Below are positions 477 through 53,000 of a stretch of 64,000 nt of DNA, piece by piece. The stretch's first letter is position 1. Each line of letters begins with the position of its first letter. Position numbers and translations under genes: made by a program. Below the pieces are notes generated by a model. The model worked only from the letters and a program-made list of their open reading frames with translations. It searched no databases and had not been told where the DNA came from. Source of the DNA: Anaspis maculata (Eukaryota; Arthropoda; Insecta; Coleoptera; Scraptiidae); assembly GCA_949128115.1 (NCBI GenBank), contig OX421961.1:108360363-108424362 (forward strand). The letters are read 5' to 3'.

Positions 477-477
477 T

Positions 478-1652
478 TATATCATTTACTCGAGTTTCGG
501 CTAATTAAATATATAAAGCCATTTTCAAAAATAATGTGACATAGCATAGAACTTTATGTCTAAGTAATGATGTAACAATGAAGAATAGACGTAACAGGTA
601 AAACAACAAAAGAAAATGAAGGAAAGGATTATAAAATTGGGAGTAGAGCTGGTATAATGTAGATATTGTCAAAATCGGTTTGTTCGTTGAGGAGGCTATC
701 TGGGTCAAGATTGTATTGTTTTTTTATTTGCAAAATTTCAGAAAATTCAATTAGGTGTCTGTTGTCAAGTTTTTGGATTGGTTTCAAACAATTAAAAGCA
801 AAATCATGGCCCTCGGCAACTACTTGTCTTGTAAAGTTTGATTTTATATCGAACGCAGGTAGTTCCCTGCGGTGCTCATTTAGTCTAATTTTGAAAGATC
901 TTATTGTGCGTCCTATATATATTTTGCCGCAAGAACAAGTTAATTTGTAGACTCCACTAGAATTTAGAGGGTCAATGGGGTCTTTGGTTTTTACTAAATG
1001 GGAGCTTAAAGTGAAAGGTGTTTTGAAACTAATATTGATGTTAAATTGTTTAAAGAAACGTGAAATTGAAGTGGAGATGTTGCCAAAATAAGATAAAGAA
1101 AAATAATTCTTTTGAGTTTTTTCTTGAGTCAAGCTGAAATTGTTTTTTATTTGATGTTTTAAGAGCTTTTTCTTGTAAAAAGATTCGAAGACTGCTTGGG
1201 GAAATGCATTGTTGGATGCAATTTGTCTTATGATATTGAGTTCAGCTATAAACTAAACAGCTAAACTACCTGCGTTCGATATAAAATCAAACTTTACAAG
1301 ACATGTAGTTGCCGAGGGCCTTGATTTTGCTTTTAATTGTTTGAAACCAATCCAAAAACTTGACAACAGACACCTAATTGAATTTTCTGAAATTTTGCAA
1401 ATAAAAAAACAATACAATCTTGACCCAGATAGCCTCCTCAACGAACAAACCGATTTTGACAATATCTACATTATACCAGCTCTACTCCCAATTTTATAAT
1501 CCTTTCCTTCATTTTCTTTTGTTGTTTTACCTGTTACGTCTATTCTTCATTGTTACATCATTACTTAGACATAAAGTTCTATGCTATGTCACATTATTTT
1601 TGAAAATGGCTTTATATATTTAATTAGCCGAAACTCGAGTAAATGATATAAA
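478..1652 (-). mobile_element. Penelope-like element remnant with inverted terminal arms
   Basis: The block is bounded by two near-identical inverted arms, about 478-863 and 1266-1652. Between and within the left arm lies the C-terminal coding part of a Penelope-like retroelement on the - strand. The right arm repeats, in the opposite orientation, the last ~80 codons plus the 3' flank. No reverse transcriptase domain is present, so the copy is severely 5'-truncated. Inverted terminal structures are known for Penelope-like elements; here the repeated part includes coding sequence. Confidence 0.75.
629..1252 (-). pseudogene. Penelope-like element pol, C-terminal GIY-YIG endonuclease domain (truncated)
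   Basis: The frame is open on the - strand from about 1252 (in-frame TAG just upstream) to the stop at 629. It reads ELNIIRQIASNN...FPQAVF near its start, a segment typical of the region after the RT domain. The nuclease core follows: SGVYKLTCSCGKIYIGRT, with GVY and YIG motifs and paired cysteines, then RSFKIRLNEHRRE, with the conserved Arg and an H in the family's usual place. It ends in an acidic helix region and NIYIIPALLPIL. In intact elements the GIY-YIG domain nicks target DNA for target-primed reverse transcription. The RT domain is missing, so this copy cannot act alone. A second, inverted partial copy of the same coding end lies at about 1266-1497 (+). Confidence 0.8.
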
Positions 1653-4367
1653 AAACAAGTGGAGAAGACTGATTTACTACAACTTTAAATTGAAAAAAAA
1701 TTTGCTCCTCAAAATTGTGGATTTTTAATTCACGATATTTTCACGTTGAATACATCAATGTTCGAAATTTTTAATAGGATCGATAACTGCAACTATTTCA
1801 CGCATTTAAATCAGGCATTCGACATAATTATCATTTCTTGAACACTATAAAATCGAGTTGGTTTGACGTTCGGGGTAAGCCAGCTTGAAACTGAAAATTA
1901 AGGCTATACCCGCGGGAAAGTGGCTGTTGTTATATTATTATTAATTCAATGTAGAGTGCTTTTTTTTCGGAAGCTAGAAAATTGTTTTGGCTACAAAAAG
2001 AAACCTTAAAAGATAGAATCAAAGCGATATTACAGCTACAATACAATTTTTCAAAGTGCGCGGAGATATTTTTGAGTGACATTTAAGACTTCGACATTTT
2101 TTTCAATAAAAATATTTTTTTCACCTTGTTACCACTTTCCTCGCGTTTGTGATATGATAGTCTTGTGCAGAAAGATCCAAATAATTCATCCAATCGTAAA
2201 TCCAAATGATTATTGCATTAAACAGAAAAATAACCCAAATTGAAAAACCGCTTTATTTTGGTCCCAAAATCACGCTTTTCTGCCGAAAATTGCTCGAAAC
2301 ATTGTTTAATCAGAATTTGAAGGTCATAATCGGATTTGTAAGGTCAGATTTAGTGGGAAACGATACCCAACATGCCAGCATTATCTCAATATTAATGAAA
2401 ACCAAATATCTTGCACAGGTCACCAATTGCCCCCCTCCCGGGCTCCCCTCACGGGAACCATAGACGTCTGGTTTGTCATTAAGTTCCACTTATACCCCAA
2501 TGTATCCAAATATGATAAATTTGAAGCAACTGACTAGATTGCTTTTGTCCTAGAATTTTTTTAATGAAAATTTTGCCCCGCCCCCCTCAAAAATTATGAC
2601 GCACACGGAGAAAAGTTGGGGACTTTTAGTATGTTGTTCAGTAAGGTTTAGTGGATATGATACCGTGAAGATTGCACGTGGATTAATTTGTTTCATGTCA
2701 AATGCTAAAAAGCCTGGGCTATTTATGAATTTTCAAAATTTCTCCTGACCAACTCGCTTTTGTAGCAGGGCTCCATTCAAAAATCCATTTCTGATCGAGG
2801 ATCGACTTCTTTGGAAAACTCCAACTGATATCGAAAGTAGACTGAATTGGGCGTCGTGTAGGCCTGTTTTCAAAATCGACACGGTTTTGGTTTTCCGACG
2901 GTAATTTTTTCAAAATGAAATTTGCATATTCCGTGAATTTGAAAAAACGCAGTGCAAACTTCGACATGCGGTGAGCCAGATCGTGGGTGAGCCCCACGAA
3001 ATATTCATTTGAGGTGCAGACATGATTAAAATGAAAGTTTGAGAAAAGAGTGAATTAATTTTTGGAGGAAAAATTTTTTTAATCGGACTCACGGTTTTCG
3101 AGTTTTTCTCTCTGGAAAAACAGCAAATTTTCCAACTTTCAATCCCGTGAACAGATTTCCACCTTTTTTTTAAACAAGAGGTGACTGGTTCTCTAACATT
3201 TTCCAATTTTTTTCCCAATTTCCGGGAATTTTCCATTTGAAAATGTATAACTGGCCTGAGTTATCGAGACCGGACTTGAATGATGGAGTTCAAAGTGAAG
3301 CCTTGATTGACGATTTCTACAATAAGATGATTTGGAATAAGATTTGAGGTATTCACGGAAAATTCAAATTTTCCTGACAAAACTTTCAATTTCCTGTAAG
3401 TTATTTTTAATCTTTTTCTCTAATTCCAACTTTCTACCCGAAAGGACGTTTCGAACAAAAATTTACATAGGTTCCTGGATACTGGTCGGGAAAGTTTTGG
3501 GGTGACACAACCGATTTTTTTTCATTTAGCATCACTAAAAACTTTGAGGTGCTCTTTCCGAGTTTCTACTTTTTATTTCGTATTATTTCTATTCGTACAT
3601 ATTGAAAAAATGGCGCCCAAAAATTTATTTATTTATTTTTTGTCAAATGTGAGGTCGACACGTTTACATGCAATGAAAGCTCATTCAATTTCCTACAATT
3701 TGAATCCCTGATGTCGTTATATAGTTCCCTTTCGTGGCCAACGAGCTGGAACTTTTGCGCAAAAAGAAATCCCTGAAGCATCCACTTTTGTCATCTAATC
3801 AGCATGTAAGTTGATCCCAGCTCCACGTCGTAGCCAAATTAACCATAAATAACGATAAGTTGTCAACCACAGACCACAGATCATTGATATTCAGAAAATT
3901 AATAATGGCAATGATTGTTGTGCAACTACAGGGTGAACTCCAAGGGCAATTTTGTCTTTTTGGGCACCATTTCTACAAAATTACGGCCAAAACAACAGCG
4001 ATACAAAGTGGAAGAGTGGATATTCTGAAAGCTCACCCCAAATTCAGTACAGAGTTCTAAGTATATCGGATAACCTCGACCCCCAAATGCTACATCACCT
4101 TAGGTAATACCTTTCTAAAGTCAGTTTGTCTGTACAGTACCAGTACACTTTGTAGTTACACAAACTAACATCATCCATCATGATCGATTTTCTAAGTTTT
4201 TATGATCTATTGTTGATGGTTAATAGCCTCATTGTGGTGTCTGGATGTTAGATGGTAGGTCCATCCAAGTACTGGGACCGACAAGCGCAAGCGCACGATT
4301 ACCTGAACTCTGTCTTCAACACTTCAACCCCCGATGCAGGTTTAGACGGGTGCACGCCCTGCGCCTG
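1653..4367. other. Non-coding stretch, nothing recognised
   Basis: AT-rich sequence with only short, unconserved open frames. No protein family, tRNA, long repeat or inverted arm was recognised. Confidence 0.5.
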
Positions 4368-24255: not shown

Positions 24256-24639
24256 CAAAAAAACATATGGAGAATTATTTCACAATTTTCAAAGTTGAAT
24301 TTTATGCCGACTGTTCTACAACGACAGTAATTAGTGGAAAATGATGCAAATTAATTTTTGAGAAACGGTATTCCCGCCTTTGACTGATTAGAACGTTATT
24401 TATCTAGAATTTTTCAAACGTAAACAAAACTAAGTTTTATCTAATTTTATCGCGCTGAATTGTATTGACTGCAGTGAGACTGGCGAGTGTGGTGTCAACC
24501 AGAGGGAGTGTCAACAGAGAGCTGTCATCTCCAGCTGATCAACTGGCAGATAATTTTCACAGATCAAAAGTCAGCCGTCCCAAAACTGTTCACATCTCTT
24601 GAACAGAGCGAAAGATGGCGCATGGGTGGCGCCAATAAT

Positions 24640-25086
24640 TAGGGTTGCTAGATTATCGACAGCTTTGGCTGTACAAGGGTTACGCAATCATCCGTTGCTA
24701 AGGGCCGGTGGGAGGGGCTAAAATTCAGCTATGTGTCAAAATTTATCATGAGCGGAGAGAAAAGGAAATTTGTGGGGTCCGGTGCTGTTGCTTGATGTCC
24801 GCAACCGAACAAACACGAAAATTTCATTTCGTATAGCGGTATAAAAGACGTGTTTTGAAACTCATCGGGCAAAACATATCCACCCCTCACACGAATTTGT
24901 ACACCTAAATCCAAAATAAACACGCTCTTGACAGCTAGAGCCTGTTGGAACGGACGCCTATGGCCTTCCGTGAGGCCGACAGCTGTCAGTCCCTAACTCC
25001 GTGAGGCCGTCTAGTAAACAAACGGTCGGCCAGAATGCGGTACCCTTACGCCGGCCGGCCGGTCGCGTGATAATAAAGGTTCCCTA
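24640..25086. mobile_element. hAT-like MITE family A, copy 1
   Basis: It starts TAGGGTTGCTAGATTATCGA and ends 'gtgataataaaggttcccta'; the ends are imperfect inverted repeats (TAGGG...ATTATC). It is flanked by variants of GCCAATAA (left with an extra T, right GCTAATAA). Six copies of this ~440-bp family lie in the window. A 64-codon open frame on the - strand (24729-24923) survives in several copies but matches no transposase I know. Confidence 0.8.
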
Positions 25087-25094
25087 GCTAATAA

Positions 25095-25731
25095 TAGGGT
25101 TGCTAGATGCTAGATTATCGACAGCTTCCGCTGTATAGACAATACAAATAGAAAAGACCATATTATGTCATCACGGATTTTTACGGTTGCGTAGGAACCA
25201 GTTGAGTCAATCATTCAAAAAAAGGTTGGCTGATTTTTGATGCCCCAATATCCGTGACGACGGTGGTGATAACATATGGTCTTCTCTATTTGTATTGTCT
25301 ATACAAGGGTTACGCAATCATCCGTTGCTAAGGGCCGATGGGAGGGGCTAAAATTCAGCTATGTGTCAAAATTTACCATGAGCGGAGCAAAAAAGGAATT
25401 TGCGGGGTTCGGTGCTGTTGCTTGATGTCCGCAACCCAACATAATTATATGGAAATTTCATTTCATCTGGCGGCATAAGACGTGTTTTGAAACTCATCGG
25501 GCAAATCATATCCACCCCTCAGACGAATTTGTACACCTAAATCCAAAATAAACACGCTCTTGATGACAGCTAGAACCCGTTGGGACGGACGCCTATGGCG
25601 TTCCGTGAGGCCTAGAGCTGTCAGTGCCCTGTCTCCGTGAGGCCGTTCAGTAAACTAACGGTCGGCCAGAATGCGATACCCTCACGCCGGCCGGCCGGTC
25701 GCGTGATAATAAGCTTCCCTAGCCAATAAAT
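25095..25731. mobile_element. hAT-like MITE family A, copy 2, with nested MITE B
   Basis: It shares the 8-bp spacer GCTAATAA with copy 1 and is followed by GCCAATAA (25732-25739). It carries a small 'gatgcta' duplication near its left end and an inserted MITE B at 25136-25301. Confidence 0.8.
25136..25301. mobile_element. MITE family B, copy 2, nested in MITE A
   Basis: Ends are TAGACAATACAAATAG and its complement, with TA at 25134-25135 and 25302-25303. Sibling MITE A copies have a single TA here ('ggctgtacaagggttacg'), which shows the empty site and fixes the insertion boundary. Confidence 0.95.
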
Positions 25732-26860: not shown

Positions 26861-29205
26861 TTTTTCAATTTTTTTTGTGGTAAAAAAAGTTTCGGTTACA
26901 TTTTCAAAACTTTTTTTTTCACGTCCCCGTACTGCGGCTCAGTTCTTCCGTTCAGTTCTTCAATGAAAAACAATGATACCGGACCGTATAATTTCAAGAA
27001 ACAGCGATGTAGCCTGATCTCAAAGATCTTATGATTCAACTCCATATTCCATTGGACCTTTTCCTTTGCGGTTACCCCACGCCTCAGGTTCATGCCGGTT
27101 ACCCCCGAAGTAATCTATATCCCAACTTCCAAAAATCGCCAAATTCATTTGTTAAAGGAGACCAGAACACAAAATACAAGTTGGTCTCAGATGAAAGAGT
27201 TGAAAAAACTAGAAAGATTGCATTGAGTCTTGTAAATTTACCTATCTTGTGGCGGGCGCTGCTGTAATAATTAAGAACGAAAATAATTTTCACGGGCTAC
27301 CTATAGCTACTCACGGGCATACCTGTACCTGATTCCGTTGCCGATTAGACCACGACGGTTCCAAGCTGCCATAATTATTATTACTGATTGTCTGAAGACA
27401 ATGACGTTTGTCAAAACGACAACAGCAATAACAAGACCATGGGAACGTGACAGGTGAAAATCGGAGGTGAAAATCTAGGTGAAAACATCTTCCCAAGTGA
27501 AGTCACGTTAATATTTTCGAAACGTTCTATCGGCTGATCAGACTCGTATGGAAAACTTAGATTTGTTCAGTTTACTCTTGAACTACCTTCCCCATAAGTG
27601 AGTCAAATAAAATATAGACTCGATTGATGCGAATATTCGGACATAAAATGCGATTTTATATGCCAAATTTTGAATCGAGGGCTCTGATTGGCCAATATGA
27701 CGACTTTGACATTAAATTTCGCATTTTCTGTCCGAATATTCGCAACTGGGAATCCAGCTTTAGTGGGCGCTTTCCACCTAGACGGTACAAATACCACCAG
27801 ACGGAACATGTTCCACAGTTGGGCACAAAATTTTAGGTGATCCAATGAATGGCACAGAACCGGGTAAGAACACGTAGATGGAAAGCACCGTTTGGCACCC
27901 GCACATGCGTAAAGGACAGGTGTATGTACCAAACCTGGGGCTAGGTAGAAAGCACCCAGTACTTGCTGAATAATTGATAGCAGAGGTATATGCCGTTCAC
28001 GTTTTAAATTCAGTAGAATGACTTTTTGGTGCAAAAATAAAGTGACAAGCCCCCAGGCTACGGCTACGGCTGATGACACCTGCAAAGTTTCGGAGGGAAA
28101 CTATCATCGGTCATCAGCTGTATCCTCCCAGCGCTCCAGCTTGTCACTTTATTTTTGCTCAAATAGTCATTCTATAGGTACCTACCTACCTACTGAAAAT
28201 AAAAAGTGAACGGGTATAGGCGTTCTGCACATTTTGAATATCCCGCCCATTTCAGCACCCTCATGCGGCAGTTGCGAACATATGTGTGAGGAAAATTGTC
28301 AAAATTGAAGTTTATGCATTGTTGAAATTGACATTTGCAGGTGGATTGATTATTTAAATAGCATTGTTGTTATGGAAATATCTAGATAACTCCCTGTAGG
28401 AAAAGTACAAAAAAACCCGCAACTTTTGGCGCTGAAGCAAATCCGCAGAGTGCCTATACGTACCTCTGATACTGCCTCTGGTACTTATGCAACTGATAAT
28501 TGATAATACACCATACTCCACTTGCTGCCTCGGCGTTCATCAGTGACATTACGTTTAGAGAAAAACAATTTTTATTGGAAACGTGTATTACAATGAGCCA
28601 GGTAATTGCGCGAGAGATTCGATCCCAAGAATAGGGCGATTGCATGGAGGGCGGCGCCGTTTGCCACCTGGGGGCTTTAGGTTTATTAATTGGTATTGTA
28701 AATCGCCAAATCGTGTGTCATAACTGTCAATCGCGTGATTTTGGCACTTGAATAAAAAAACATTCAACTCGCCACACCAACTGCCCGCTGTAATTAGTTC
28801 TCTTCTCATCTTTCTATATTGTCGAACAAAACAGAAATGGCATAAAATTCCACAAGTTCCCCACCAATGAACCCCTGAAGAAGCGATGGGCCGTTGTTCG
28901 ACTTTTATTTGCAATTTGCAAAACATAAACAAACGAAACTAATCGATTATCTAGATCTGGCGCAAGCGCGCTGTGCCACCGAACCAAAGCCACCAAGTGG
29001 CGACAAGCTGAACCAACATCATGCAATTGCCCTATTCCTCTGGGGCCTTATTTCTAGAGGGGAGCGATCACCAGGTGATCACAGTTCAGCCAATCACAAC
29101 CCTGGTTGCCTAGCAACTTCGCATGTGAACGGATCACGTTCTTTCTAGAAATAGAGCCCCTGAACATTTCCCTTTCGCTTATCTATAATATCTTTTGTTT
29201 CACAA
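26861..29205. other. Non-coding stretch with two small hairpins
   Basis: Hairpin 1 at 27629-27745: 'gcgaatattcggacataaaa' against its complement around 27710-27745. Hairpin 2 at about 28013-28175: 'agaatgact' and 'gcaaaaataaagtgacaag' against their complements. The 160-codon frame on the - strand here overlaps both hairpins and shows no domain. Confidence 0.55.
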
Positions 29206-29875
29206 TCTCACGCTTCGACCAGTTTCTTTCAAATGAAATGCCGAAAGTAAATTTTATTGTTTTAATGAATTCTACTAATTTACAATAGTTACAAATCCAC
29301 AAGGTGATACCAGCAGGGATCTTCTTTCCGCTACGAAAACAACAATCGCGTTATTACATCTATAAATAATTGTGGTGGGACTCGTACTTTACATATAATG
29401 TATAAATCTGACTGATTTTAAAAACAATCGGATCACAAACTACTATGTATCTATTTACATCATGTATCTATTGTATCTATTTCTTTATATAAGAGCATCG
29501 CATTCCGAGTTCAGAGCGATAGATGGAGTTTATTCAAGAATACGAAAAAATATTTCAACAATTATTGATGCTTATTTTTGAAGGTAGGTACTTATAAGGG
29601 TCAGAGGGGAGAGGGGGGACTTGGCTCCTCTCCATTTCGTTATTCGAAGTGATTTTGGGGAACTCTTTGTCAAAGACTTATCAGTGAAAATTATCAGCTA
29701 CTGGATGCCCACTGAACCTCTATTCAAGATCCAGGGTGATTCTTCAGTCTCAAAAATTCATTTTCCTTCAAAAACGTCACTAAAAATGTTTTCATGAAAA
29801 CGAGAAGAACCATATTTTGTTCTAAATTACTTTAGGGACTAGTGGAATATTTTACAGGTATTCGCGATTTCAAAC

Positions 29876-31683
29876 TAGGGTTGCTAGATTATCGACAGCT
29901 TTGGCTGTACAAGGGTTACGCAATCATCCGTTGCTAAGGGCCGGTCGGAGGGGCTAAAATTCAGCTATGTGTCAAAATTTATCATGAGCGGAGAGAAAAG
30001 GAAATTTGTGGGGTCCGGTGCTGTTGCTTGATGTCCGCAACCGAACATACATGAAAATTTCATTCATATAGCGGCATAAAAGACGTGTTTTGAAACTCAT
30101 CGGGCAAGTCATATCCACCTCTCACACGAATTTGTACACCTAAATCCAAAATAAACACGCTCTTGACAGCTAGAGCCCGTTGAGACGGACGCCTATGGCC
30201 TTCCGTGAGACCGACAGACGTCAGTCCCTAACTCCGTGAGGCCGATCGGTAAACAAACGCTCGGCCAGAATGCGGTACCCTTACGCCGGCCGACCGGTCG
30301 CGTGATAATTAGGTTCCCTATTTCAAACTAGGGTTGCTAGATTATCGACAGCTTTGGCTGTACAAGGGTTACGCAATCATCCGTTGCTAAGGGCTGATGG
30401 GAGGGACTAAAATTCAGCTATGTGTCAAAATTTATCATGAGCGGAGAAAAAAGGAAATTTGCGGGGTCCGGTGCTGTTGCTTGATGTCCGCAACCGAACA
30501 AACACGAAAATCTCATTTCATATAGCGGCATAAAAGACGTGTTTTGAAACTCATCGGGCAAAACATATCCATCCCTCACACGAATTTGTACACCTAAATC
30601 CAAAATAAACACGCTCTTGACAGCTAGAGCCCGCGTTGAGACGGACGCCTATGGCCTTCCGTGATGCCAACAGACGTCAGTCCCTAACTCCGTGAGGCCG
30701 ATCGGTAAACAAACGCTCGGCCAGAATGCGGTACCCTTACGCCGGCCGACCGGTCGCGTGATAATTAGGTTCCCTGGCCAATAATTAGGGTTGCTAGATT
30801 ATCGACAGCTTTGGCTGTACAAGGGTTACGCAATCATCCGTTGCTAAGGGCCGATGGGAGGGACTAAAATTCAGCTATGTGTCAAAATTTATCATGAGCG
30901 GAGAAAAAAGGAAATTTGCGGGGTCCGGTGCTGTTGCTTGATGTCCGCAACCGAACATACATGAAAATTTCATTCATATAGCAGCATAAAAGACGTGTTT
31001 TGAAACTCATCGGGCAAGTCATATCCACCTCTCACACGAATTTGTACACCTAAATCCAAAATAAACACGCTATTGACAGCTAGAGCCCGTTGAGACGGAC
31101 GCCTATGGCCTTCCGTGATGCCGACAGCTGTCACTCCCTAACTCCGTGAGGCCATTTAGTAAACAAACGCTCAGCCAGAATGCGGTACCCTTACGCCGGC
31201 CGACCGGTCGCGTGATAATTAGGCTCCCTATTTCAAACTAGGGAACCTGATTATCACGCGACCGGTCGGCCGGCGTAAGGGTACCGCATTCTGGCTGAGC
31301 GTTTGTTTACTAAATGGCCTCACGGAGTTAGGGAGTGACAGCTGTCGGCATCACGGAAGGCCATAGGCGTCCGTCCCAGCGGGCTCTGGCTGTCAAGAGC
31401 GTGTTTATTTTGGATTTAGGTGTACAAATTCGTGTGAGAGGTGGATATGACTTGCCCGATGAGTTTCAAAACACGTCTTTTATGCTGCTATATGAATGAA
31501 ATTTTCATGTATGTTCGGTTGCGGACATCAAGCAACAGCACCGGACCCCGCAAATTTCCTTTTCTCTCCGCTCATGATAAATTTTGACACATAGCTGAAT
31601 TTTAGCCCCTCCCATCGGCCCTTAGCAACGGATGATTGCGTAACCCTTGTACAGCCAAAGCTGTCGATAATCTAGCAACCCTA
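29876..31683. mobile_element. Array of four hAT-like MITE A copies
   Basis: Copies at 29876-30320, 30329-30776 and 30786-31230 (direct) and 31239-31683 (inverted). Flanks and spacers are exactly 8 bp: TTTCAAAC at 29868, 30321, 31231 and 31684. The spacer between copies 2 and 3 is GCCAATAA plus T. The last two copies form a ~0.9-kb inverted pair with an 8-bp spacer. Confidence 0.9.
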
Positions 31684-33711
31684 TTTCAAACATCTAGACG
31701 CCGCCCTCTGGCGGTTAAAGTGGCGAAGCTAGTTTGTAAGTTTTTACGTCATTTTTGTTCTGTCGCTTCTGTTAGATAACCAGTGACAATCGCGCGAATT
31801 GTCAAAATACTCGTATAGGTGATCGAGTTATTCAAGAAAATTGATTTTTGTTGAATAGCGATCAATACCACAAATACCACAAAATACGACCGTTATACAA
31901 CGCGCGATGACAGGTGACAGAAAAACTTACAATCCTTCATCTTGTTTACAGTGCCCTCATCGGTACCTAGTTAAAATCGCGAATTAGTAAAGAAAACCGA
32001 ATTTTTGCTTTTTATGACTCACCCACTGTATCGTAAGTAGAAATTCACCGGCGGTTCCACAAAACAGATGATTCGAGATTAGTTGATTTGCGATTTTTGT
32101 TTGTCAATTTGTAGCTGACTGATCAATGGAAATGCTGGTTTATCTCTCAATAATGGAAAGATGATGGGTCTAGTACAGATTTCATGCATTTTTTGTGAGT
32201 AATCACCTAGCCTTCAGCAGAAAAAAGTTCAGTTAATCTGCAATCAGCCTTGATCGCTGATCATCTTTTTTGTGGAACTGACGGTCAGTGTACACCCACT
32301 AATTAATGATTTTTACTGATCAGTCTATCACAAATATTTAGTTCCACAAAATCACTTAAAATAGCGAAAAGGGAGGGGGGTGAAGTCCCATCCTTTAATT
32401 CCCCATATCTTCAGAAATAAACGTCATGTATTTTTTTGAATATTTCTCCCGTGTTTTGAGACATCTGTATTTTTTTTTATATTCAAATTTTATTCAATTT
32501 TGGTATAATTCTGTGAAGGTTGTGCACACCCATTTTATAACATTTTACAAGCAGCTGACATAGACATAGGTGCGACTAGTCAAGGAGGTCACAACACACG
32601 AGTGAACTGCACCCTCAACACCAGCGTCCCCAATAAACAAAGTCAAGTGCGTCGCTAGTGGTTAGGGTTCGTTTTTTTTTGCCAATTGCATTGTGCAATA
32701 ATAATTTTCTACAAACAATTTTAACAATGGAGATCAGTCAACAATAATTATTACTGTTTCTACACTCACTACAACCATTACATTTAGCTTTGAAATGCGT
32801 ATGCTGATTTAAAGTGAAAAAGGACACAATCATACAGGATCACATGTTTGTTCTTTAATCCTCAATGGGCAATAATAATAATAATCTTACTATACAAAAC
32901 ACTACATCATAGAGTTGCATATTATTCACAATTATGTAATCACTGGATGTCACATTTATCACGAGAAATCGGATAGATATTTTTCTTAATACAAGGTGAT
33001 TCACAATTAGACCAAAAGAATTTGACTCTGTATCAAGAAAGACTGTGACAATGACACTGATTTTTTTCATTCGTGGGCGTAAGAAGTTATATGGTCCTTT
33101 GAACTTGGAGGAAATTTTTGTGCTTTCTTCATTTTATCAACTTTTTTGCTTCTTCACATTAAAATACGGAGAATGGGTCAAAAACAGAGCTGATGTTACC
33201 TATGAAGCTTGAAAAAATAAGTAGCAAAAGGCAAAAATACGAGAAAAAAAAACATTAAGAAAGTTCAAAACATCACTTTCTTGCTCCTGTCTTCTTTCTT
33301 GATACGGTAGTTGATTATTTTGTTCTAATTAGTATACCTAGTATTTCAGATATTGTATATTGATACACAGCTACCTACTTACCCCGACAACTACAAATAT
33401 GGAACATTGTGTAACTTCTATTATACATATACAAAATATCTGAAATCTGAAACAGAATTGGTCGCATTGCTGCATTTCATAATCAAATTTTTAACGAATA
33501 TGTCCCAGTGCCCCAGTGTCAATATTTATATTGTCTTCTTCGGTAGGTACTATAAAAAAGTTGTTTTGTTTATATTACCGAACAATGGTTAAAGGAGTAC
33601 CTAGATTATAATATCAAGTATTCAAGTAGGGATGTTTCTTAAATGATTATGTCAATAATGTAGCAGAAGCCACATCATTATCATTGTGTAAGCAAATTAA
33701 GTATACCTAGG

Positions 33712-34240
33712 TATACAGGGTGATTCACCACCAAATGGACATAGCTTAAGGGTAGGTCCAGTTTTTCCAGGCGAAGCAGGATCTGGTTTTGAAATTTTTC
33801 TAACACTGTTCGTTTGGAAACTACAGGGTGATTCATCTATTTCGTAGAATTTTTCGACAAGCCATAACTTTAGAACGACCGAATGGATTCGATTGAAATT
33901 TTGTGGGTTAATTCTTCTATTGATAGCTGAGACATTGCTTCATCAAGCAGTTCGAAATTTCCAGGGCCGGCCTTGATAAAAAAAACTTCAAAGCTTTTTT
34001 TGAAAAAAAAACTTCTGTATGCATATTTCTCAAAATTCATTCACATATTCAAAACCCACATAAAACATGCTTTTGATATCGCAAAAAAAATTGCTTGGCA
34101 CCATTGAGCTGTCCATAAAATTTTGATAATCCTGAAGATTTTTGAAGTTAGGATTTTTTGTAAACTAATAATTCAAAATATTCGCAAATAATCTATTATG
34201 GCCTCAAATTTCAGCCGTTTCGTCAAAAAAAAATTGAAAA
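33712..34240. repeat. Dispersed repeat R4, copy 2
   Basis: TATACAGGGTGATTCACCAC at the start, a second 'ctacagggtgattcat' at about 33823, and an ending around 'tttcagccgtttcgtc'. It is absent from the matching place in duplication copy 2 (near 40870). Confidence 0.75.
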
Positions 34241-36520
34241 TTTTTTTCACGTTTTCTCAGTAACTTTTCTTTTACAGGTTCTTTTATTTTTTTTTGAAAT
34301 ATTTGAGTATTTGCGATTTGGATCAGCTTTTCCCGCCACAAGATGGCTGCCAAAAGCGACATGCGTCGACAGTGATTGCATGCCATCGTTATGTAACTTT
34401 GATGTCGTTGCGTCGTTGGCTGTTTGTCCCTACTCGTTTAAATCTTTATTTGGCAGCTGTCTTATGGCTGGGCTGGAAAAAATTATTTAATCGCGAATAA
34501 AGCCGCAGTTTCCACCTCACCATGTGGGTCTCAGCAAACGAATACCTTGTCAAGACCATCATCTCATCAGTATCAGAAATGTCACCGGTGGTGGATGTTA
34601 TAGTTCTGGAGTGCCCGGGCAAAACAGGATAAGTAACTGTTTCTCTCGCTGTTCCCCTTATCCAAAGATGACAAAAATCATATTACATCAATCAGCGAAA
34701 GTAGGCGAACAGCTCCAAAAGTAAAAAGCTTCAATAAAGCAAAGCTTAGAATGGATTTAGTAGTGAAAAAGTGAGTATCTTCGTGAGCTTGTTGATTGAT
34801 GATCACACAAGTGTGCATGCACGCATCATCATATTGTACCACTAAAAGTCCGAAAACTAAGGTCTCAAAGTATTTCCGCTGGTTTTCTTTTTTTTTGCGC
34901 GCGATCGTATATTAAAAAACAAAAATGCTAATTGAGGTTTTGAAAAACCTGAGAACAAAACTCCAGACACTGCTGTGATGAAAATCAAATCTAAACGGAT
35001 AATAATTAGGCAATCCGCAAATCGATCAATAGTCCAGACTGGTGGATCTCTACTGAATTAAGTAGTAGGTATGTATTATTTTGTTGCACTTGAGCTACAA
35101 CTATAGGTCGATACAATATTTAGGTCCAGTATAAAATCGTCTACATACATAAAATGTTTTTAGTGACGAAAGGCATAATTATAGGTATGTTCTTTTATTA
35201 CTAGAGATCCTTGAAAGCCCACTTAATCACAACGAAATTGGTAAAAAACATAACATGCGTGTTGAGGGGCAATAGTGCCGGAAGACAAAGAATGTGTGTT
35301 ATTGAAAGAAATGTGCTGCAGTTTATTTACAATTTTTTTCTCGTAATATTCACATCTCTTTTATATATTCTTCAGTTTAAAACTTTGAAACCCGATTTTG
35401 GTCAATTTGGTATTGCGTTCCTTAGGTATACTTGACTCATTTTTGGACCTATACCTACTGTTGAAGCCTAGAGTAAAAAAATCCCTTAACAAAACCACAA
35501 CGATCAAAAATATTTAGCAAGTTGTGTTTGATAAACTAAGATATTCCTACTTTACACTAGCTGAATAATTTTCAAAAACCATATCATAAAGGCCTAGGGG
35601 GTTTTAAAGCTGAATGCAGGACAGTACCAGCTATAGTACCTTCAACCCTAGTGCGATTCTAGTTGGCTAGGAGTTTCGCCACGCGACGCATTTGTAAAGG
35701 AGAAATTTGGGAAATCATAGCTCACTAGAATCACACTGGGATTGAACGTACTATACCAGGTACCTTCCTATTAAAGATGGTAGGTACTGTCTTTCGTTGG
35801 GAAGTATTAGTCTTTTCAATATCTACTGATTATGTGTGCATATCTCTATAAAGAACAACACTAGCATATACGCCTAAAACTATCACCTAAACAATTGAAA
35901 ATTTTTAACAATGTACGTTAGAATATGAATATTTCATATCAACATTTTCAGATTTATATTCTTACACAATAATTTAGATGGGTATTTAAGTTTACTTCCT
36001 TTGATCCTCGAAATTTGTCGACATAAATTACTTTACACCTAAGAACAAAACACAAAGCAAATTCTTACATAATATTGTCCTTTTAAAATTTGGTTCAATC
36101 TTATACAGAGAGAAATTTTAAATATAGTAAAAATGGCATCCTTTAATAACATATCAATACTCAGTCATTAAACGATAAATTCCCTATAAATACTGACTTT
36201 CTAAAAAAAGTGCGACACCTTCGTTCTCCAAGAAAGCGCCTCATTCCCCTACTGTGGTCGTGGTCATAGGCACCAAAGCAAAAGTGGAATTCCCTTGTCC
36301 CGTTTGCAGTCGTCAATTAAAACATTTTTCTCTGCTCATCGCATCATTAAAATCTTAGTCATGTAGTAGTAGGTACTTGAAGGATCAGAAAAACACGACA
36401 GGAATTAGGTCCAAAAGACCGAATTACTTTAAAATGATAGTTGCCGAGATCAGACAATCTAGGACCATTGTATACTAGGACTGTAGCTCAATCATCTCCT
36501 ATCGTGCCTTCGGTTCATCC

Positions 36521-37150
36521 TTAAGAGTCCTCTGTACGCTCAGAGTGGCTCCAACTAAAATGCCTCTAAATCGAAGCCAGTGATTTTCTTTGAACTGGCA
36601 TTTAGAGATTCCACTTCATATCTCCATATAAACATGTTAACGGAAAAAAATCCGAGAAAAACCGATCACAGCCGAAGATAGTCAAATTTCACGCGCTCCA
36701 TTCTAGGGCTTTTATTTGACTTGAAACAAAAATATTTTTTTCCAGGGTGGACTCTCAACAGTATTCTGCACAATCGTACCGGGTGGTTTTTCAGTAAAAA
36801 ATTTCCAGCTGAAGATATGAACCTCCAAATTTTTGAGCATTTTTTTAATAATTTTCACGGCCAAATAACTTGGGCTCCAGATATTTTATTGAAAAATCAC
36901 CCGGTACGTTGGTGCAGAGTACTGTAGAGACTCCTCCTTGGAAAAAGAAATTTACTTTCAAGTCAAATAAAGGCCCTAGAATGGCGCCTGTAAAATTTTA
37001 CTATCTTCGGCTGTGATGTGATTTTTTTCCTTTCACATGTTTTTATGGAGATATGAAGTGTAATCACCAAATACCAGTTGAAAGAAATTCACCGCCTTCG
37101 ATTTAGAGGCCTTTTAGCCGGAGCTGCTTTAAGCGTACAGAGGACTCTTA
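36521..37150. repeat. 630-bp foldback element FB5
   Basis: Perfect 20-bp ends, TTAAGAGTCCTCTGTACGCT and its reverse complement. Arms of about 220 bp continue with 'atgcctctaaatcgaag', 'catatctccat' and 'cttttatttgacttgaa'. The centre includes 'ccagggtgg' and 'caccc' motifs. It is absent from the matching site in duplication copy 2. Confidence 0.9.
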
Positions 37151-37939
37151 ACATCTTGTAGCAGCCACTCTCCAAGGCCAAGAGCACAAAGGAAAAAAAA
37201 GCAGCCACTTGAAGACTAACATTTTCACGAAGAGCAAAAAAAGTGGTGGGTGAAGAAGAACCACACCTTTTCTGTCGACTATAATTTGCCTCCTTGGTTT
37301 ATTGATAGATTTGAGTCTCCAAAACACATTTTTTTGCGAAAATTTCATCAAAAATCGGTTCACGACATTTAATTGGTGTTGCATTTGATGTTGCACTTTT
37401 TTTAGAACTCAGTTTAGAAAACAGTTATTCTGTCCACTAATTCTTGGTTATAATCCCATAGCTTGCCCATCGATAAAAATGCGCTTTTTGCCGTTTGATT
37501 GCATATCCAGTTGCAAAATTTGGATGTCGAATCGCTGGATAAGGAGGACAAACTGTGGGAACTTCTTCGGTCTCTTCAAACATAGCATATGACCAAAACA
37601 ATAAAACATAGGTATACGTTTACGGACAAACAAGTTAACCAATAAACATGTACCTATATCACAATCATCATCTCCATAAAATGAATACTTATATCACACT
37701 TTTTTTAACTCAACAATCAACATTGGCATATTACTGCTACAGCAAAATGTTCTATTAAGGTCCTTACGAAAATGTATAATGTGTGTCAACAATAAAGGAC
37801 GTCCTGGAACAAGCAGAGAAGAACGACGAATAATCAGGTAAGCTAGCTTGAAATCTGTAAAAAATTGAAGAAGAAATTAGAAGTTTTGAATGGTGTGCCA
37901 ATAATTTCCGAAGAGTATACTTACTTCTTTTACATCAAG

Positions 37940-38026
37940 TCATGGAAACGACGGAAAAAATCCCCATATGGTGAATGCGAGAATTATTGCCAAGATCGTG
38001 AGGCAGATCAAGATCATGATTTTCTT
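37940..38026 (-). CDS. Syx1A: Syx1A alternative terminal exon I (membrane anchor, distal)
   Basis: Acceptor 'catcccgcag|aag'. It encodes [20 protein letters not shown] followed by WGFFPSFP and TGA, 28 residues. The first 12 residues equal exon H; the tail has diverged. It lies in duplication copy 1. The basic KK and hydrophobic run are intact, so it could still work as a tail anchor. Confidence 0.75.
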   Translation of the reverse strand, partial: KKIMILICLTILAIILAFTIWGFFPSFP

Positions 38027-41000
38027 CTGCGGGATGTAACACACAACATAACGGATTAGGACTTGATTTGACATATCGTGCCATTCAGTTATAACACTAC
38101 ATAACATAAGTACTATGTGCCATTATCACTTCCTAAACAAATAAAAAATCTAAGGAGGTGGTTCTCGTAATTGAAAACGTTTTTATCATACCTACATGAC
38201 TCAAATCCATGGATATACCGAATATCAATATAGTCCTAACGTTAGTGGGAAATAACTTGCACTTTTATACCAAGCATTGTCACTTTGCATGCCTGTTGCT
38301 GGGACCACCCTGGACCAATCTAGATGTGAGAACATCGGCGCAAATAGTGCAGGCACTTTATACAGGGTGAAATAGAAAAAAAAATTGACAAATCGGAAAT
38401 CTTCAACCATAACCGATGTATGTAAATCAGGATTTTGATGACGGATTTCATGCTCATGAAGATGCTGCAAACAGTTTTGAAATACCTTTAGGTGTTTCCG
38501 AAATATGCTGGAAGAAGTGAAACTTCTTAATTTTTTTTCTTTTTTCGAAAATAGAGTTGTTTTTGGAGATATCGAGCTGCAACTTGATATTCCGACAAAC
38601 AATCATGTTTTTAATAAAACGCGATGTGGGGACATCGACAAAGCCTGCTAGATCCAAAACTGAGATCTTAACTTTCTTTTCCATCGTTAACGTCATCTTC
38701 GAATTGCCCTTTGTACAATTGTTGAAAAAACAACAGGTGACGGCTTTATTGGACGGAGAGAGTTCAGCGGCGTTTTGTCAAGTTTGTGCTCCTCAACGTG
38801 GATGGCTCGTATCCCTGCTGAGGTTTCCCGCAGGATATCATGTTGCGTCTTAATTGTGGGATTATCTAGCTTGAGCACGCGTCAGACTGTGCACTCGGTC
38901 TATTACATCACACCGTCCCGTCGGCTGGTTTGTGTAGTTAGTAGATACTGATACAACTAGCATTATAAAGCTGTTGGAAAGGCGTCCCGGCGATAACCAC
39001 GCTGATGAGACGTAGGAACGTCGAAACATCGGTGTCCGTGTTTTCGGTTCGCTTTTTTCAACAGCATTTTACCGTGAACGACATTATTAATCATAATCAA
39101 TTGGTAATTCCAAATAATAATAAGAACAATAATAATAGTGATAATAATAATAACATTCTCCTACTATATTTCACGTCTCTGGCATCCTTCGCTTCGACAA
39201 GTTTCTTTCAAATGAAACGCCAAGCAAGTAAAATTTTATTATGTTTTTAATGAATTTTACTAATTTACAATAGATACAAATCCACAAGATGATACCAGCA
39301 GGGATTTTCTTTCCGCTAAGAAAACAACAATCGCATTATTACATCTATAAATAATTGTAGTAAGACTCGTACTTTACATATTATTGTCTAATGTATAAAT
39401 CTGACTGATTATGAAAGCAATCGGATCACAAACTACAGTGTATCTATTTACAAGTGAAATTAACTGCCTTACAGGGTGTTTAATCAGGCGATTATACTAA
39501 AGGAAAGAATCGTACATTTTAAATATTTCAATAAGTAATAACAATAATAAATTGAATATATGTAATAACATTTTTCAATCTCTCTTACTAATCGAAATCT
39601 TTCCTACTTAGTAAAGTACAAGGGTGTAAGTAGGTATCTAAATACGGTTTTTCTTTACTCTTTTTTCTTTATAATACCTTCAATAGTTATGAAGTAGGTT
39701 AGTAAAGATTATGATTGTTTTTTTTTTTTTGTAAAAGGTATGCTAACGCTATACAATTTTTTACAAACTTATTAATTGACGATCTTATTTTCAATATGTA
39801 AGACACAAGACTCCCATCAGCACTTCAAGAAATAGTCTACGAGGATTTTTTATAATAATACTTAATGCCTATTTGATCAACTGCAATGGAGTTGAGTCGG
39901 TGTTTTGAGCTAGCTTCTAGTGCTAGTCTCAAAGTTGCGACACATAAGAGTCTTATTAAAAATATTGTACTTTATCCAATTAAATTCGTTTCAAATCCTT
40001 TTGCTAGATGAAACACCCGGTATACATAATATACACGCATATATGCATAAGGTACATATTATATTATTTATATTTTATTTAATTTTGGTATCATCCTGTG
40101 AAGGTTGTGTGCACATCCATTTTATGACATTTTACAAGGAGCTGACATAGACATAGGTGCCACTAGCTAAAGAAGGTCACAACACACGAGTGAGGGGACT
40201 GCACCCTCAACACCAGCGTCTCTAATAAACAAAGTCAACAAGTGCGTCGCTAGTGGTTAGGGTCCGTTTTTTTTGCCAATTGCATTGTACAATAATTATT
40301 TTCTACAAACAATTTCAACAATGGAAATCAATCAACAACTGTTGCTACACTTACTACGATTACATTTAGCTTTGAAATTTGTGCTGGTTTAAAGTGAAAA
40401 AGGACACATACAGAATCACATGTTTCTCCTTTAACCATTAATAGTTAATTATCTTACTATACAAAACACGACATCATAGAGTTGTATATTATTCACAATT
40501 ATGTAATAAACTGATGTTATATTTATCACAAGAAATCGGATAGATATATTAATATAGTATTTCAGATATATTCGATTTAACGAAAACCGCTATAAATAAA
40601 ACATTATGAACTTCTAATATGTATAAAATATCTGAAACAGAATTGGTCGCATTGCTGTACTCCAACTACATTTAACAACGATAACGATTATCTGAAGTGT
40701 TGATATATATTGCCTTCTTCAGTAGGTACTATATGCTATATTGTTTATGTTATCGAACAATGGTTAAAGGAGTAGATTATAATATCAAGTATGTTTCTTA
40801 AATAATTATGTCAATAATGTATAGCAGAAGCCACATCATTGTGTAAGCCAATATTAGGTATTACTTCCCACGATCGTAAGATTCTGATATACAATATAGA
40901 TCAAACTTTCAAAAACACCCATTGACTAAATATGTTTTGCTATTATTGTAGAACGACAAAATAATCTTATAAATTTGGAACATACAGATGCGAAACACCA

Positions 41001-44000
41001 TTTACAATTTTTAAAATGCCTACATATGTATAATACTACAAGATCCATTTTTTCAAAGAACTACTTACATGATAAAAAGTATTTTGACTACATTAATATC
41101 TCAATATCTCACTTGTTTGCATCGCCTTGGCGCCTTATAAGTAGATGCAAGAAAATTCATTACATAATTAATTATATTTCCCAATTGAATTGACACTTAT
41201 AAGTTGAATTGTTTTGCGGGTGCTATATGCAAATCCATCAATAGTCCAAAATGATGGATCTCATCTCTACTAAATTTAGTAATATTTTGTTGCACTGGAT
41301 CTACAACTATAGGTAGGTATGATATTAGGTCCAGTATAAAATCGTCTACGTACATAAATATTTTCAGTGACGAAAGACATATGTTTTTTTATTACAGAGA
41401 TCCTTGAAAGCCTACTTAATCACAAATAAATTGATAACAAACATAACATACGTATTTAAGGGGCAATAGTGACGGAAGACAAGGAATGTGTTCTTCAAAG
41501 AAATGCCGCAGTTTATTTACAATTTTTTGTAATATTTACATTCCTTTTTGATAATCTTCAGTTTGAAACTTCGAAACTAGATTTTGGTCAATTTTGTATT
41601 GTGTTTCTTAGGTACTTTTGACTCATTTTGGCCCGCTGTGAAAGCCTAAAATATATATACAAAAAATTCCCTCAACAAAAGCACAACCATCAAAAATTTA
41701 ATAAGTCGTGTTTGATAAACTGAGGCATTCCTACTTTAGTCTAGTTGGATAACTTTCAAATACCATATCATCAGGCCTAGAGGGTTTTAATGCTGAGTGC
41801 GGGACAGTACCGAGATATTGTGTCAATAATGTTCTACGTTTTTGAATATTTAAACTAATAAGGTTTTTTCGAGTGCAACAGGTACTTAAGATGGTACTGT
41901 CTTCCGTTGTGAAGTATTAGGCCTCTCAAAATCTACTGATTGTGTGTGCATATCTCTAAAAAGAACAACACTAGCACCTACGCCTAAAACTATCACCTAT
42001 ATCAACTAAGTTCTCCCAACAATGTACGTTAGAGTAGATTTTTCGTATCAACATTTTCAGAATTTATATTACATAATGTTATACTCTTAAATTTGGTTCA
42101 ATATACAGTAAGTAATTCTAAAAGAACTAAAAATGGCACCCTTCAACAATATATCAATACTCAGTGATGAAACGATAATTTCGCTACATAGAAAACAGTA
42201 ATTCTGTACACTAATTCGCAGTAATAATCCCATAGCTTGCCCATCGGTAAAATCCAGTATTTTGGGACACTTTGCCTTCGATTGCTATATCCAGTTACAA
42301 TATTCGAATCGCCAAATAAAGAGGACAAAATGTGGGAACTTCTTCGACCTCTTCAAACATAGCAATTGACCGAAACGATAGAACATACCTACGTTTACGG
42401 ATAAACAAGCTAACCAAAAAATATAACATCATCTCCATAAATATCACACGTTTTTTTTTTAACTCAACATTCACATAATATTATTGCTACAGCAAATGTT
42501 TTATCGAGGTCTTTACGAAAATGTATAACGCGCTATACTAGATCCTCTTGCTTTTCAAAGTGTTTTAGATTTCCATTCCACTCGAAATGTTTACGAAATT
42601 TTGGAACAAATTATTGTAGATTACATGTTTGTCAACAACAAAGGACGCTCTGGAGCAAGCAGAGAAGAACGACGATTAATCAGATAAGCTTGCTTGAAGA
42701 TCTGCAACAAATTCAAAAAGAAATAACTCCTTTTGAACAGTGAGCCAACTTTAGAAGAGTACTCACTACTTTACACCAATCCAAGGTATCCTCCTATGGT
42801 GCATGCGATAATTATTCCCAAGATCGTGAGACAGATCAAGATCATGATTTTCTTCTGCGAGATGTAACACACAACAAAACGAATTACTTATTTTCAAATA
42901 TAGTGCCATTTTGGTTACACTACACACTATGTGCCCTTGTCACTCACTAAACAAATGAAAAAATGTTGAATTAACATTTTGATTAAGCTGCTCCAGTTGG
43001 TGATCCATAGTCTGTAGGTATACAGAACAAATTAGAACAGTTTGTCTTGTTGTAAGCAACTGATGGCTTACGTTTTGACTTCTTAGTGCAGTGTGTAGGT
43101 GTGTGTGTATATGTGTGTGTGTGTGTGTAATCTCTGAAAAAGCCGGTTTATTCTTTATATTGCGTTAATGGGCAGCATTGTATAGATGCTATCGTGGCAT
43201 TCTAGATTCTGTACTAACTGAATGGGAGGAGTAATGGAACATAGTTCCATTTGGTACGTAGACCTCACTTTTGGGCCCATTGTGTACCACCTTCCCGTTG
43301 GTTCCCCCCCCCCCTTTCCCGAAGTCATCAAGCCAGTCCAGCCATCGACGAAACCGAGGATCCGACCAGGGAGGATTCCAAGGCTGCTGGCCACGCTAGG
43401 CCAGAGGTCCCCCAGTATGGGTCCTCTCATTGATGCTTAAAGAGCTGGGCAGTGACAAAGCACGTGCTCGCCTGTTTTATCACCCAGTGATTGATTGTCC
43501 AGTGATTGTCCAGTGAAATCCCCAAAGGTTTTCTGAGTTTCACCCCTTTCACCTTCACTGGACAGGTGCAAGCAGAGTAGCTGGCTACCTTTCTGGGAGT
43601 CTGGTCGTTGCGGCTTTCCCTTATTGTCTGCAGCCTTGAGTGTTCATGCACACCCATCGCTCTATATAATGACATTTGAGGGTGTCTTATTTTATCAGGT
43701 TTTTGACGGTTGTCAGCGGTGAAATTGGCTTACCGGGTTGTCGCGAACTCATCAGCTTCTTCATTTCCCTGATCCCCAGTGTGTGTTTTAACCCATATGA
43801 GCTCCATGACATTTGTCTGTGCTATTCGTTCCAGAGCCTGGGTGGCACTCCCACAAAGGTACTCTTCCGGAAGTTACTTCGCAACTAGCCAGGGCCAAGA
43901 GTACCAAGGAGCTTGTGGTGTGGTGGTCAGCGCGTTTGATTACCACTCCAGAGGTCGTGGATTCAAGTCCCACTGTGGACGCTCGGATTTTCGGCCCCAA

Positions 44001-50000: not shown

Positions 50001-53000
50001 AACCTTTTGAAATGCATCTTTCATTTTCATTTGAATGTTATTAATTTGAATGCAGTAAACAAGCATTTATATAATTAACGAGAACAATGGGTTAAGAAGT
50101 CATCAATTTACCTGCCTTCTACGAATTGAGTTCGATATGGCGATTCAATTTGTAGGCGACACGTTGCCTCTTGTTGATTCAAATAAAAATATATAATAAC
50201 TACTAAATATGTCCTTGTGAGTTATACACTTGAGACAAATAATCACAAAACATACCAACAGTATATTGCACTGATCAACTTGGACTTGATCAAATCACAA
50301 ACACATGTTTTCTTTTTGGTGGTTCAAAGTAAAAACAAAACAAAAAAATAGGTGATGGTGGTTGGTAGGTGGCCGTTCACGTTCCAGATTAATGCAAAAA
50401 AACTGCCAAAATAATGATTAAAATGATGATAGCTACTATGAGGCAGATTATGATGAGGATCTTTTTCTGTGAACAGAAAAAATGAAAAATAAAATAAATA
50501 AATCGCCAATAATAACCAAACACACAGGGTCTCAGACATTGACAAACAAGCAACACATTGATAAATTCAAAATGAAAATTGCAAGACCCTGTTTTTTTTT
50601 CAAGAAAACATCAAAATAAGTGAACACTGAAATTGCATTCAAAAGACTGAGTTGTGACAACAACAAACGCAAATCTGTTGTGTTCTTCGAAAATGAAAGA
50701 ATTGCAGTATTCAACGTAAATAAAACTGAACAAAATACACAAATCAATAAAAGCTTAAAGAAATGGAAAAATCAGAGGGAGGGAATCGGATTTTAGTAAA
50801 CCTACCTTTCTAGCTTTAGTTTGGTATTCTTGCGCAGATTTCAGCTGCGTGCGTCCAGTTTGCACATGGTTTTCGGCTAAGCCAACATGATATTCCACCC
50901 GATCAACTAGCTCTCCCTATGGATCGGGAAAGCAAAGGATCGATGTGGGGGTGTGAGGTGGAAGGGATAGGAGGGGCGAGGATAAGGGCAAAAAGGATAC
51001 GAGGGTCAAGATAGAAACACCGAGAAAACAGCACAACCAACCATCGAGTATATGTACAAAAAACATTTAGTAGTTCATTAATACAGAGTGACAAAGGCAC
51101 ACAGAATATAGTTAGTACCAATTACCATAAAAGTTAAGCCAAGTAAAAAGAGAAAGAAGAGTAAAAAGCATTTTATAAGGCGAGACATGGACAAGGTAAA
51201 GGGATAAAGGCGAAAAGAAACAAAATACAAAAAATTAAAAGCAGATAGACACTAGATCATCTTATAGACTAGGAACAGACTCACCCGCCTCGCTTTGCTT
51301 TGGTACTTTAACGCTTTTTTGGTATCTTGCGTAGCAGTTTGGACATAATCCACGGCGTGCTCTACGTGGTACTCAATACGATCTATCATTTCTCCCTATA
51401 GAACCCAGCAGGACAAGCCCAGTATAAGTGAAAATGGTTAGTCACAGATAAAATTAAAATGTTAAAATCCAAGGCTTTTTTTGCACTATTACACATCTCA
51501 AGATAATAAATGATGTCAGTTTCATTTAAATCCAAGAAGTAGATGTAGTACAAATATGAACCCAAGACGTATAAATACAGAATGGAAGTCAAACAACCCA
51601 ACAGTAAACAAGAGTTAATTGATTATTTGAAATCGGATGCAGTAGTGGAATAAAATGAACAAGATAAAAGAAATGTCCTGCGAAAAGCTCCCACTGGGTA
51701 TTTACTAGCCGCTTTTCACGTCCTCACTTCTCTTGTGAATATAATAATCAGAGAGTGGAGGATGCTCAGGGCTCAGCTCAACAGTTCATAACGTTTCTGA
51801 ACTTATACGTTGTTATAGTACTTCAAATCGTTGCTAGTGGTGGCAACGTAGGCAGCAAATATCAAGGCCACTGATCAAGAAAGCTTTGGAATTTGATTTT
51901 CGTACAGGTAGGTGGGACCGTCAACTTTGAATGCTTATTACCTATTAAGCCTACAGCGGTTCGGGATAATTCAAATTTCAATGTGACATTTGTCAAATTC
52001 AGACAAATCAGAAAGAATTCGCAGCAAGAAACTGTGGTGTACGCAGGCAGAAAACAAATGCGGCAACCGTACAAAATTCAGACGTATTATACTAATTTGT
52101 CAAGATGTCAATGACTTTGACAGAACTCTTTTCGAAGTTGTCGGTACCTAATCAAATTTCAAGGCTACATTGATCAAGTGGCCTTACAAAAAATGACATT
52201 TTGAGTAGAAATAAACTTTCAAATCAATAATCAGCAAGGAACAATAAGTTCAACGCCAAGTTTTACAATGCAGGTATCTGTTGAACAATGCACGTATCTG
52301 TTGATAAAATGGGACAATAAAAACTACAGGGTGGCTAGGAAGTCACAATTGTATGCATTTTGACGTTCTATACTGTCAGTTTTATTAAACTCTTCAGTAA
52401 CATCCCTGAAGAAATGTTTACTCACTGCCACTAGTAGTACGATCGCACGCAAAACAAACGGAGATAGTGTTTCGCGCGGAGTGTACCGATTTACTGAATT
52501 TTGGCTTGGTGTCACAGTGACAAGAAGGCTAAAATTCATTAAATCAGTACACTCCGCGCGAAACACTGTCCCCATTTATTTTGCGTGCGATCGTACATTG
52601 CAGTACATTTAGTACATTCATTATTATCTTGCTCAAGGGACGGCTGTGGAAATATAACCATACGGCATGGAATTTGACCCATATTCAGGTACAATCATAA
52701 ATTAAAGTCAATTATAAAAGAGCGGGAAGGAGGAGTAAGATTTGTAAAGTTGATTCCTGACCACCCTGTATTGCAAAACTATATCTATAAGACCGAGTCG
52801 TTGATTGAAGAAATACCTAGCCTTTGTTTGCTTTCCTCGTACAACATTCGTACAAATACAAAGTGCCCTAGAAACTGTCTGACAATCGTGAAACTCTCGG
52901 ATGTCCTAGTGACGAACTCTTGTTGATTTAAAAATTGAAAGCCCAACTTGTCAAATCGATTTTCGATTTTCGAAGTTGTTGGTAGACTTTCGACTAGTGC

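Follow-up and report, generated by a model that had tools for sequence, protein, structure and literature searches.

Positions 38898-39109 of the window (the whole stretch of 64,000 nucleotides analysed, C1:108360363-108424362) can with good confidence be assigned to a partial copy of a retrozyme, a non-coding element of about 330 bp that was likely moved by a reverse transcriptase and an endonuclease of the Penelope type. The motif that it carries at 38998-39040 of the plus strand is a complete type I hammerhead with predicted self-cleavage. Taken alone, this single motif is ordinary. The repeat copy and the parts of the motif are the following:

38898..39109, plus strand: partial copy (212 bp) of the family 1 hammerhead repeat (~330 bp), aligned to unit positions 101-312 of the copy in locus L040
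38970..39065, plus strand: enclosing hairpin of 96 nt, outer stem I GCTGTTG.../...CAACAGC, with the hammerhead as its core
38987-38989/39045-39047, plus strand: outer stem I CCG/CGG, past an internal loop
38998..39040, plus strand: type I hammerhead (inner stem I, core, stem II, stem III and C17), from the descriptor and the R1 match
38998-39001/39037-39040, plus strand: inner stem I CACG/CGTG
39002..39008, plus strand: core CTGATGA, C3-A9
39009..39022 (39009-39012/39019-39022), plus strand: stem II GACG/CGTC with the 6-nt loop TAGGAA
39023-39025, plus strand: core GAA
39026..39035 (39026-39028/39033-39035), plus strand: stem III ACA/TGT with loop TCGG; A15.1 is 39026 and U16.1 is 39035
39036..39037, plus strand: predicted cleavage between C17 and the next base, from the position in the hammerhead consensus

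An earlier note on this DNA had described a complete type I hammerhead here, with a 3-bp stem III and a 6-nt stem II loop, and both points held. All core bases are present (C3 U4 G5 A6 N7 G8 A9, G12 A13 A14, A15.1-U16.1 and H17, the predicted cleavage C being 39036), as in the published core consensus, in which N7 is any base (PMC3088659). The pairs number 4+4+3; three helices can form with an open stem I, which is extended by outer helices, and the minimum-energy fold differs. A strict descriptor, which asks for CTGATGA without mismatch, GAA, H17, a 4-bp stem I, 4 bp or more in stem II and, in a stem III closed by A-U, 3 bp or more, gave this single site on both strands of the 64 kb, where a first-order Markov null expects 8e-5. 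No further hammerhead was found on either strand of the window, and the sequence past the other duplicated segment has no counterpart of the motif. Separately, the order CTGATGA...GAAA...GTC occurs at 28070-28117 on both strands, within an imperfect inverted repeat (28014-28174), and is rejected by the strict descriptor.

The covariance search proposed in the earlier note gave a divided answer. In an Rfam scan of 18 kb at E <= 1 the window hammerhead had no match; on 251 nt, RF00008 scored 19.0 bits against a gathering score of 48.5 (E 0.12) and RAGATH-1 16.6 bits against 56.3 (E 2.1), both far below their cut-offs. No RF00163 (Hammerhead_1) match to the motif appeared in either scan, and in the shorter one an overlapping RF00008 match may hide one; the architecture of that model is nevertheless the one read in the window. 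No hammerhead was among the matches listed by Rfam for one Penelope locus and three loci of the family. Since the Rfam models made no call, we built a model, R1, from 16 hammerheads of the same genome: 15 belong to a second family (family 2, meaning all RF00163 matches in the genome with sub-families pooled) and one to a third, with none from the window's own family 1. R1 ranked the motif first in the window (38994-39044, 27.6 bits, E 6e-6), the next match standing at E 0.11. On 43 family 1 loci it gave 51 matches at E <= 1, the best of 34.1 bits, and a few of these lie off the family copies.

The same note had recognised no element body around the motif and had allowed for a lone one. This was overturned by a search of the assembly (757,842,296 bases) with 38920-39120, in which the window copy is one of at least 42 family 1 matches at E <= 0.01, itself included, that are 79-100% identical (40 of 132 candidates scored). 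The window copy shares 80.5% identity with L040; for other copies the figure is 79-89%, in each case along part of 38920-39120. An exact pattern of core, stem II and stem III matched 35 times genome-wide, its reversed control not once, and a scan of viral contigs gave 0 matches. As read from L040, the unit measures about 330 bp with 41% G+C. It has no protein-coding ORF, nor the reverse transcriptase with GIY-YIG by which Penelope elements are recognised; the ORFs near the window motif, 38225-38602 and 38557-38853, had no Pfam match.

In 8 of 30 family 1 loci, the window's own counted among the 30, a unit end is joined directly to a unit start in the same orientation (L023, L025, L026, L027, L029, L031, L036 and L046), and many copies start at differing points within the unit. 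The direct junctions suggest that the template was multimeric or circular. The earlier note's mention of retrozymes and Penelope elements proved a good lead. Family 2 comprises 73 RF00163 matches, all above the cut-off at 39-51 bits; its unit is of 406 bp with 52% G+C, and the 406-bp spacing recurs as a tandem in L009. Alignments between families 1 and 2 at E <= 1 cover the hammerhead stretch only, plus one 29-nt match of E 0.11.

Other arrangements were seen in passing. A third hammerhead repeat lies head-to-head in L008, at 519-573 (minus) and 760-825 (plus), with the sequence CTGATGA...AACAAGAGGCGAAACA...TGTGG. At L045, L047 and L080-L082 (C7:45.30-45.34 Mb), head-to-head retrozyme blocks stand beside similar ORFs, which by the look of their sequence may be tandem F-box-like gene copies. 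The inverted hammerhead copies of L078 and L079 are far apart and have ORFs nearby, P0121 being one of them.

Family 1 fits the known animal non-LTR retrozymes in size, composition, hammerhead type and junctions, to judge by its sequence. It is a dispersed non-coding repeat of about 330 bp (150-450 in the published elements) with 41% G+C (published, below 45%), bearing a type I hammerhead with short stem III and head-to-tail unit junctions (PMC7229834). Insects are named in the same source among further invertebrates with such repeats. The present elements differ from those described in that direct arrays do not exceed three units among the loci examined (the longest in family 2 at L009), family 2 reaches 52% G+C, head-to-head blocks are common and most family 1 copies have C at core position 7. 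Family 1 with its hammerhead is likely an animal non-LTR retrozyme.

As regards an autonomous partner, a review states that animal retrozyme repeats show no motif betraying one, and puts forward Penelope/Terminon elements as likely candidates, these also carrying hammerheads and co-occurring with the repeats (PMC7761336). A Penelope-like element is present near one end of the window:

477..1247, minus strand: left arm of a Penelope-like element arranged head-to-head, 98.8% identical to L084; C-terminal end of the ORF at 629-1132
1264..1691, plus strand: right arm of the same element, 99.1% identical to L084

The family has at least 150 matches, ORFs of up to 853 aa with RVT_1 and a 2,686-bp tandem. 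Among the best 120 relatives of its frame most carry RVT_1, and 10 of the 120 also GIY-YIG (PF01541). In the frame itself Pfam gave only RVT_1, with no GIY-YIG even at E <= 10, and solved structures gave no match at E <= 1. The designation Penelope-like is our own, the element being so classed from the domains of its relatives and from its arrangement in tandem and inverted copies, as is usual in that group.

The hammerheads known from Penelope elements are likewise of type I with very short stem III (PMC11167929 and PMC7761336, both citing Cervera and De la Pena 2014). With the Penelope-like family, family 1 has the genome and the head-to-head habit in common; it differs by its lack of protein and of significant alignment to the Penelope locus L084, where the best alignment was of 15 nt (E 0.5) and no common sequence was recognised. 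Similarly, R1 found nothing significant in five Penelope loci (best E 1.6).

The Penelope pLTRs do contain a variant motif of their own, TTTTTGAAAATGGCTTT...AGCYGAAAYT, at 493-531 (minus) and 1597-1635 (plus) of the window and at 3372-3410 of L084. It has 242 exact matches in the genome, with 0 for the reversed control, and occurs in three of four relatives of 66-70% protein identity. To the eye its layout is like the three-way junction of a hammerhead whose core reads UUGAAAA (C3->U, G8->A). Positions 3 and 8 of the hammerhead form a pair, and the U and A found there look as if that pair had been swapped; R1 gives the motif no score. In the Penelope pLTRs examined only this variant was found, without CUGANGA.

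We compared the orientation of opposed neighbours less than 5 kb apart. Head-to-head (a minus-strand copy followed by a plus-strand one) against tail-to-tail, the counts were 34:0 for the Penelope-like family (drawn from at least 150 matches, with 150 of 1559 candidates scored), 7:0 for family 2 and 3:0 for family 1; within the loci examined they were 11:0 for family 1 and 9:1 for family 2, the exception being in L016. Opposed pairs numbered 0:0 in 143 matches of a LINE-like reverse transcriptase, LINE being our own label, given to this protein on the ground of relatives with RVT_1. Fisher tests against the LINE, with copies treated as independent, gave p 1.9e-11 for Penelope and p 2.5e-4 for the hammerhead families, although this control is imperfect, for a single-copy template could hardly leave two complete 3' ends. 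Target duplications of 13 bp in L009, 14 bp in L011 and 11 bp in L036 surround whole blocks (3 of 12 blocks tested), so that each of these three blocks is one insertion. None of at least 10 bp was present at the other 9 of the 12, and 0 of 300 random placings had one.

Two hammerhead families and the young Penelope thus share head-to-head blocks and the LINE has none; the Penelope machinery is therefore the likely mobiliser, as we infer from structure. Multimeric transcripts would self-cleave at each hammerhead and the monomers would be circularised by a host ligase, as reported in other animals (PMC7229834). A Penelope protein would then copy the circle or the multimer, run beyond one unit and leave the head-to-head arrangement.

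An alternative is that the retrozyme was moved by another reverse transcriptase, that of a LINE, and that twin priming on multimeric RNA gave rise to the head-to-head blocks. Twin priming on such a template would likewise set inverted units head-to-head, and LINE-like ORFs of up to 1013 aa are present in the genome. Animal retrozymes have also been likened to SINEs (PMC7761336). The counts speak otherwise, with 0 head-to-head pairs in 143 LINE matches against 34 in 150 Penelope matches. Moreover, the head-to-head arrangement is a published Penelope trait, being the commonest inverted arrangement observed among endonuclease-bearing Penelope elements of a rotifer (PMC3846280). We accordingly consider the LINE unlikely. 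We lean, with some reserve, towards the reading in which the autonomous partner that animal non-LTR retrozymes lack is a Penelope-like element.

We then aligned 33 of 36 family 1 copies, the window's included and three rearranged rows left out. All core bases are kept in 25 of the 33. Core position 7 is C in 29 (CTGACGA), T in three (the window, L021 and one copy of L045) and G in one. Compensatory pair counts inside the family do not exceed shuffles, which is expected of decaying copies and is of no help for the structure; such support as there is for the structure comes from comparing families 1 and 2, where stem II has G-C as its fourth pair in one and C-G in the other. Divergence outside CpG was 0.032 in hammerhead columns against 0.101 elsewhere (by permutation, p 0.0002 over the whole hammerhead and 0.077 when the core is taken by itself), a difference that may be partly due to copies having been found by similarity to that region.

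The minimum-energy fold of 38967-39069 is a rod pairing CUGAUG with CAUCGG (-45.3 kcal/mol), whereas the best fold that keeps the hammerhead reaches -31.2 kcal/mol; both energies cover secondary structure only. With 15-nt flanks, the gap is 14.0 kcal/mol in the window copy, the largest of 25 descriptor-passing family 1 copies, whose median is 5.8 kcal/mol; in family 2 the median is 4.0 (n = 15). Because its gap against the hammerhead fold is the largest, we expect the window copy to be a worse ribozyme than its relatives, and its activity may be poor.

This rod also bears on a second alternative, a MITE- or microRNA-like hairpin repeat in which the rod is the real structure and the hammerhead core incidental. 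It would suit the 14 kcal/mol by which the rod is stabler in the window copy and the 96-nt hairpin that both arms form. The T at 39006, which gives CTGATGA, also completes the rod, yet the resulting U-A pair 39006-39028 exists in only 3 of 33 copies. By chance, an intact core would be expected only 8e-5 times in the window, and a same-genome repeat of different body has the hammerhead in common and nothing else significant. We regard this alternative as very improbable.

The earlier note's suggestion that the window copy could be a relic describes its likely state. The copy is a single unit with one hammerhead, around which no target duplication was found, and a strong alternative fold competes with the ribozyme. 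Most likely the copy is inert, a relic. Such a copy could cut a read-through transcript, not release a unit.

The copy lies between two duplicated segments, as the earlier note had it, in the neighbourhood of syntaxin exons:

17127-18698: KIF-binding protein gene; closest among named proteins is that of Tribolium, 66-67% identity; by genus, the named hits above about 52% are all from beetles, which makes the host a beetle
29211..38148: segmental duplication copy A, in collinear blocks with insertions
39190..42962: segmental duplication copy B, 80 bp after the end of the family 1 copy
between 58.3 and 50.8 kb, minus strand: syntaxin exons, from a search with a syntaxin query

Each duplicated segment has one match to a syntaxin membrane anchor (38029-38003 and 42857-42831), both short and weak (E 2.3 and 6.0). 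Two versions of a syntaxin SNARE exon lie at 50806-51395 (minus), with 45.9% and 74.4% identity to the syntaxin query. Elsewhere, a 456-bp tandem repeat occupies 29861-31690 and 24637-25729 and includes a long near-perfect hairpin, 31176-31293, which Rfam likens to mir-341 below cut-off on both strands.

As the syntaxin exons are on the minus strand, the hammerhead would be antisense to Syx1A; the Syx1A pre-mRNA would carry its complement, where the descriptor finds no hammerhead. Scarcely credible is the idea, also raised in the earlier note, that the ribozyme has a function at the locus in processing antisense RNA: for all its antisense position and intact core, the motif belongs to a dispersed repeat and recurs at dozens of other places, its competing fold is the strongest in the window copy, and core plus all 11 inner pairs are kept in 18 of 33 aligned copies, the window among them, so that its intactness needs no local selection. 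The motif is probably not a switch for the adjoining nerve gene.

Among the titles and abstract openings listed in searches of the open-access literature, none describes family 1 or ties retrozymes to Penelope through head-to-head blocks. The shared insertion signature is a different kind of evidence on what mobilises retrozymes, and one that any genome assembly allows to be counted. In this beetle, two retrozyme bodies and a young Penelope insert as head-to-head blocks of several units, as if one enzyme had copied circular or multimeric RNA each time. A genome with two hammerhead families and a young Penelope with open 853-aa ORFs is a good system for testing this link.
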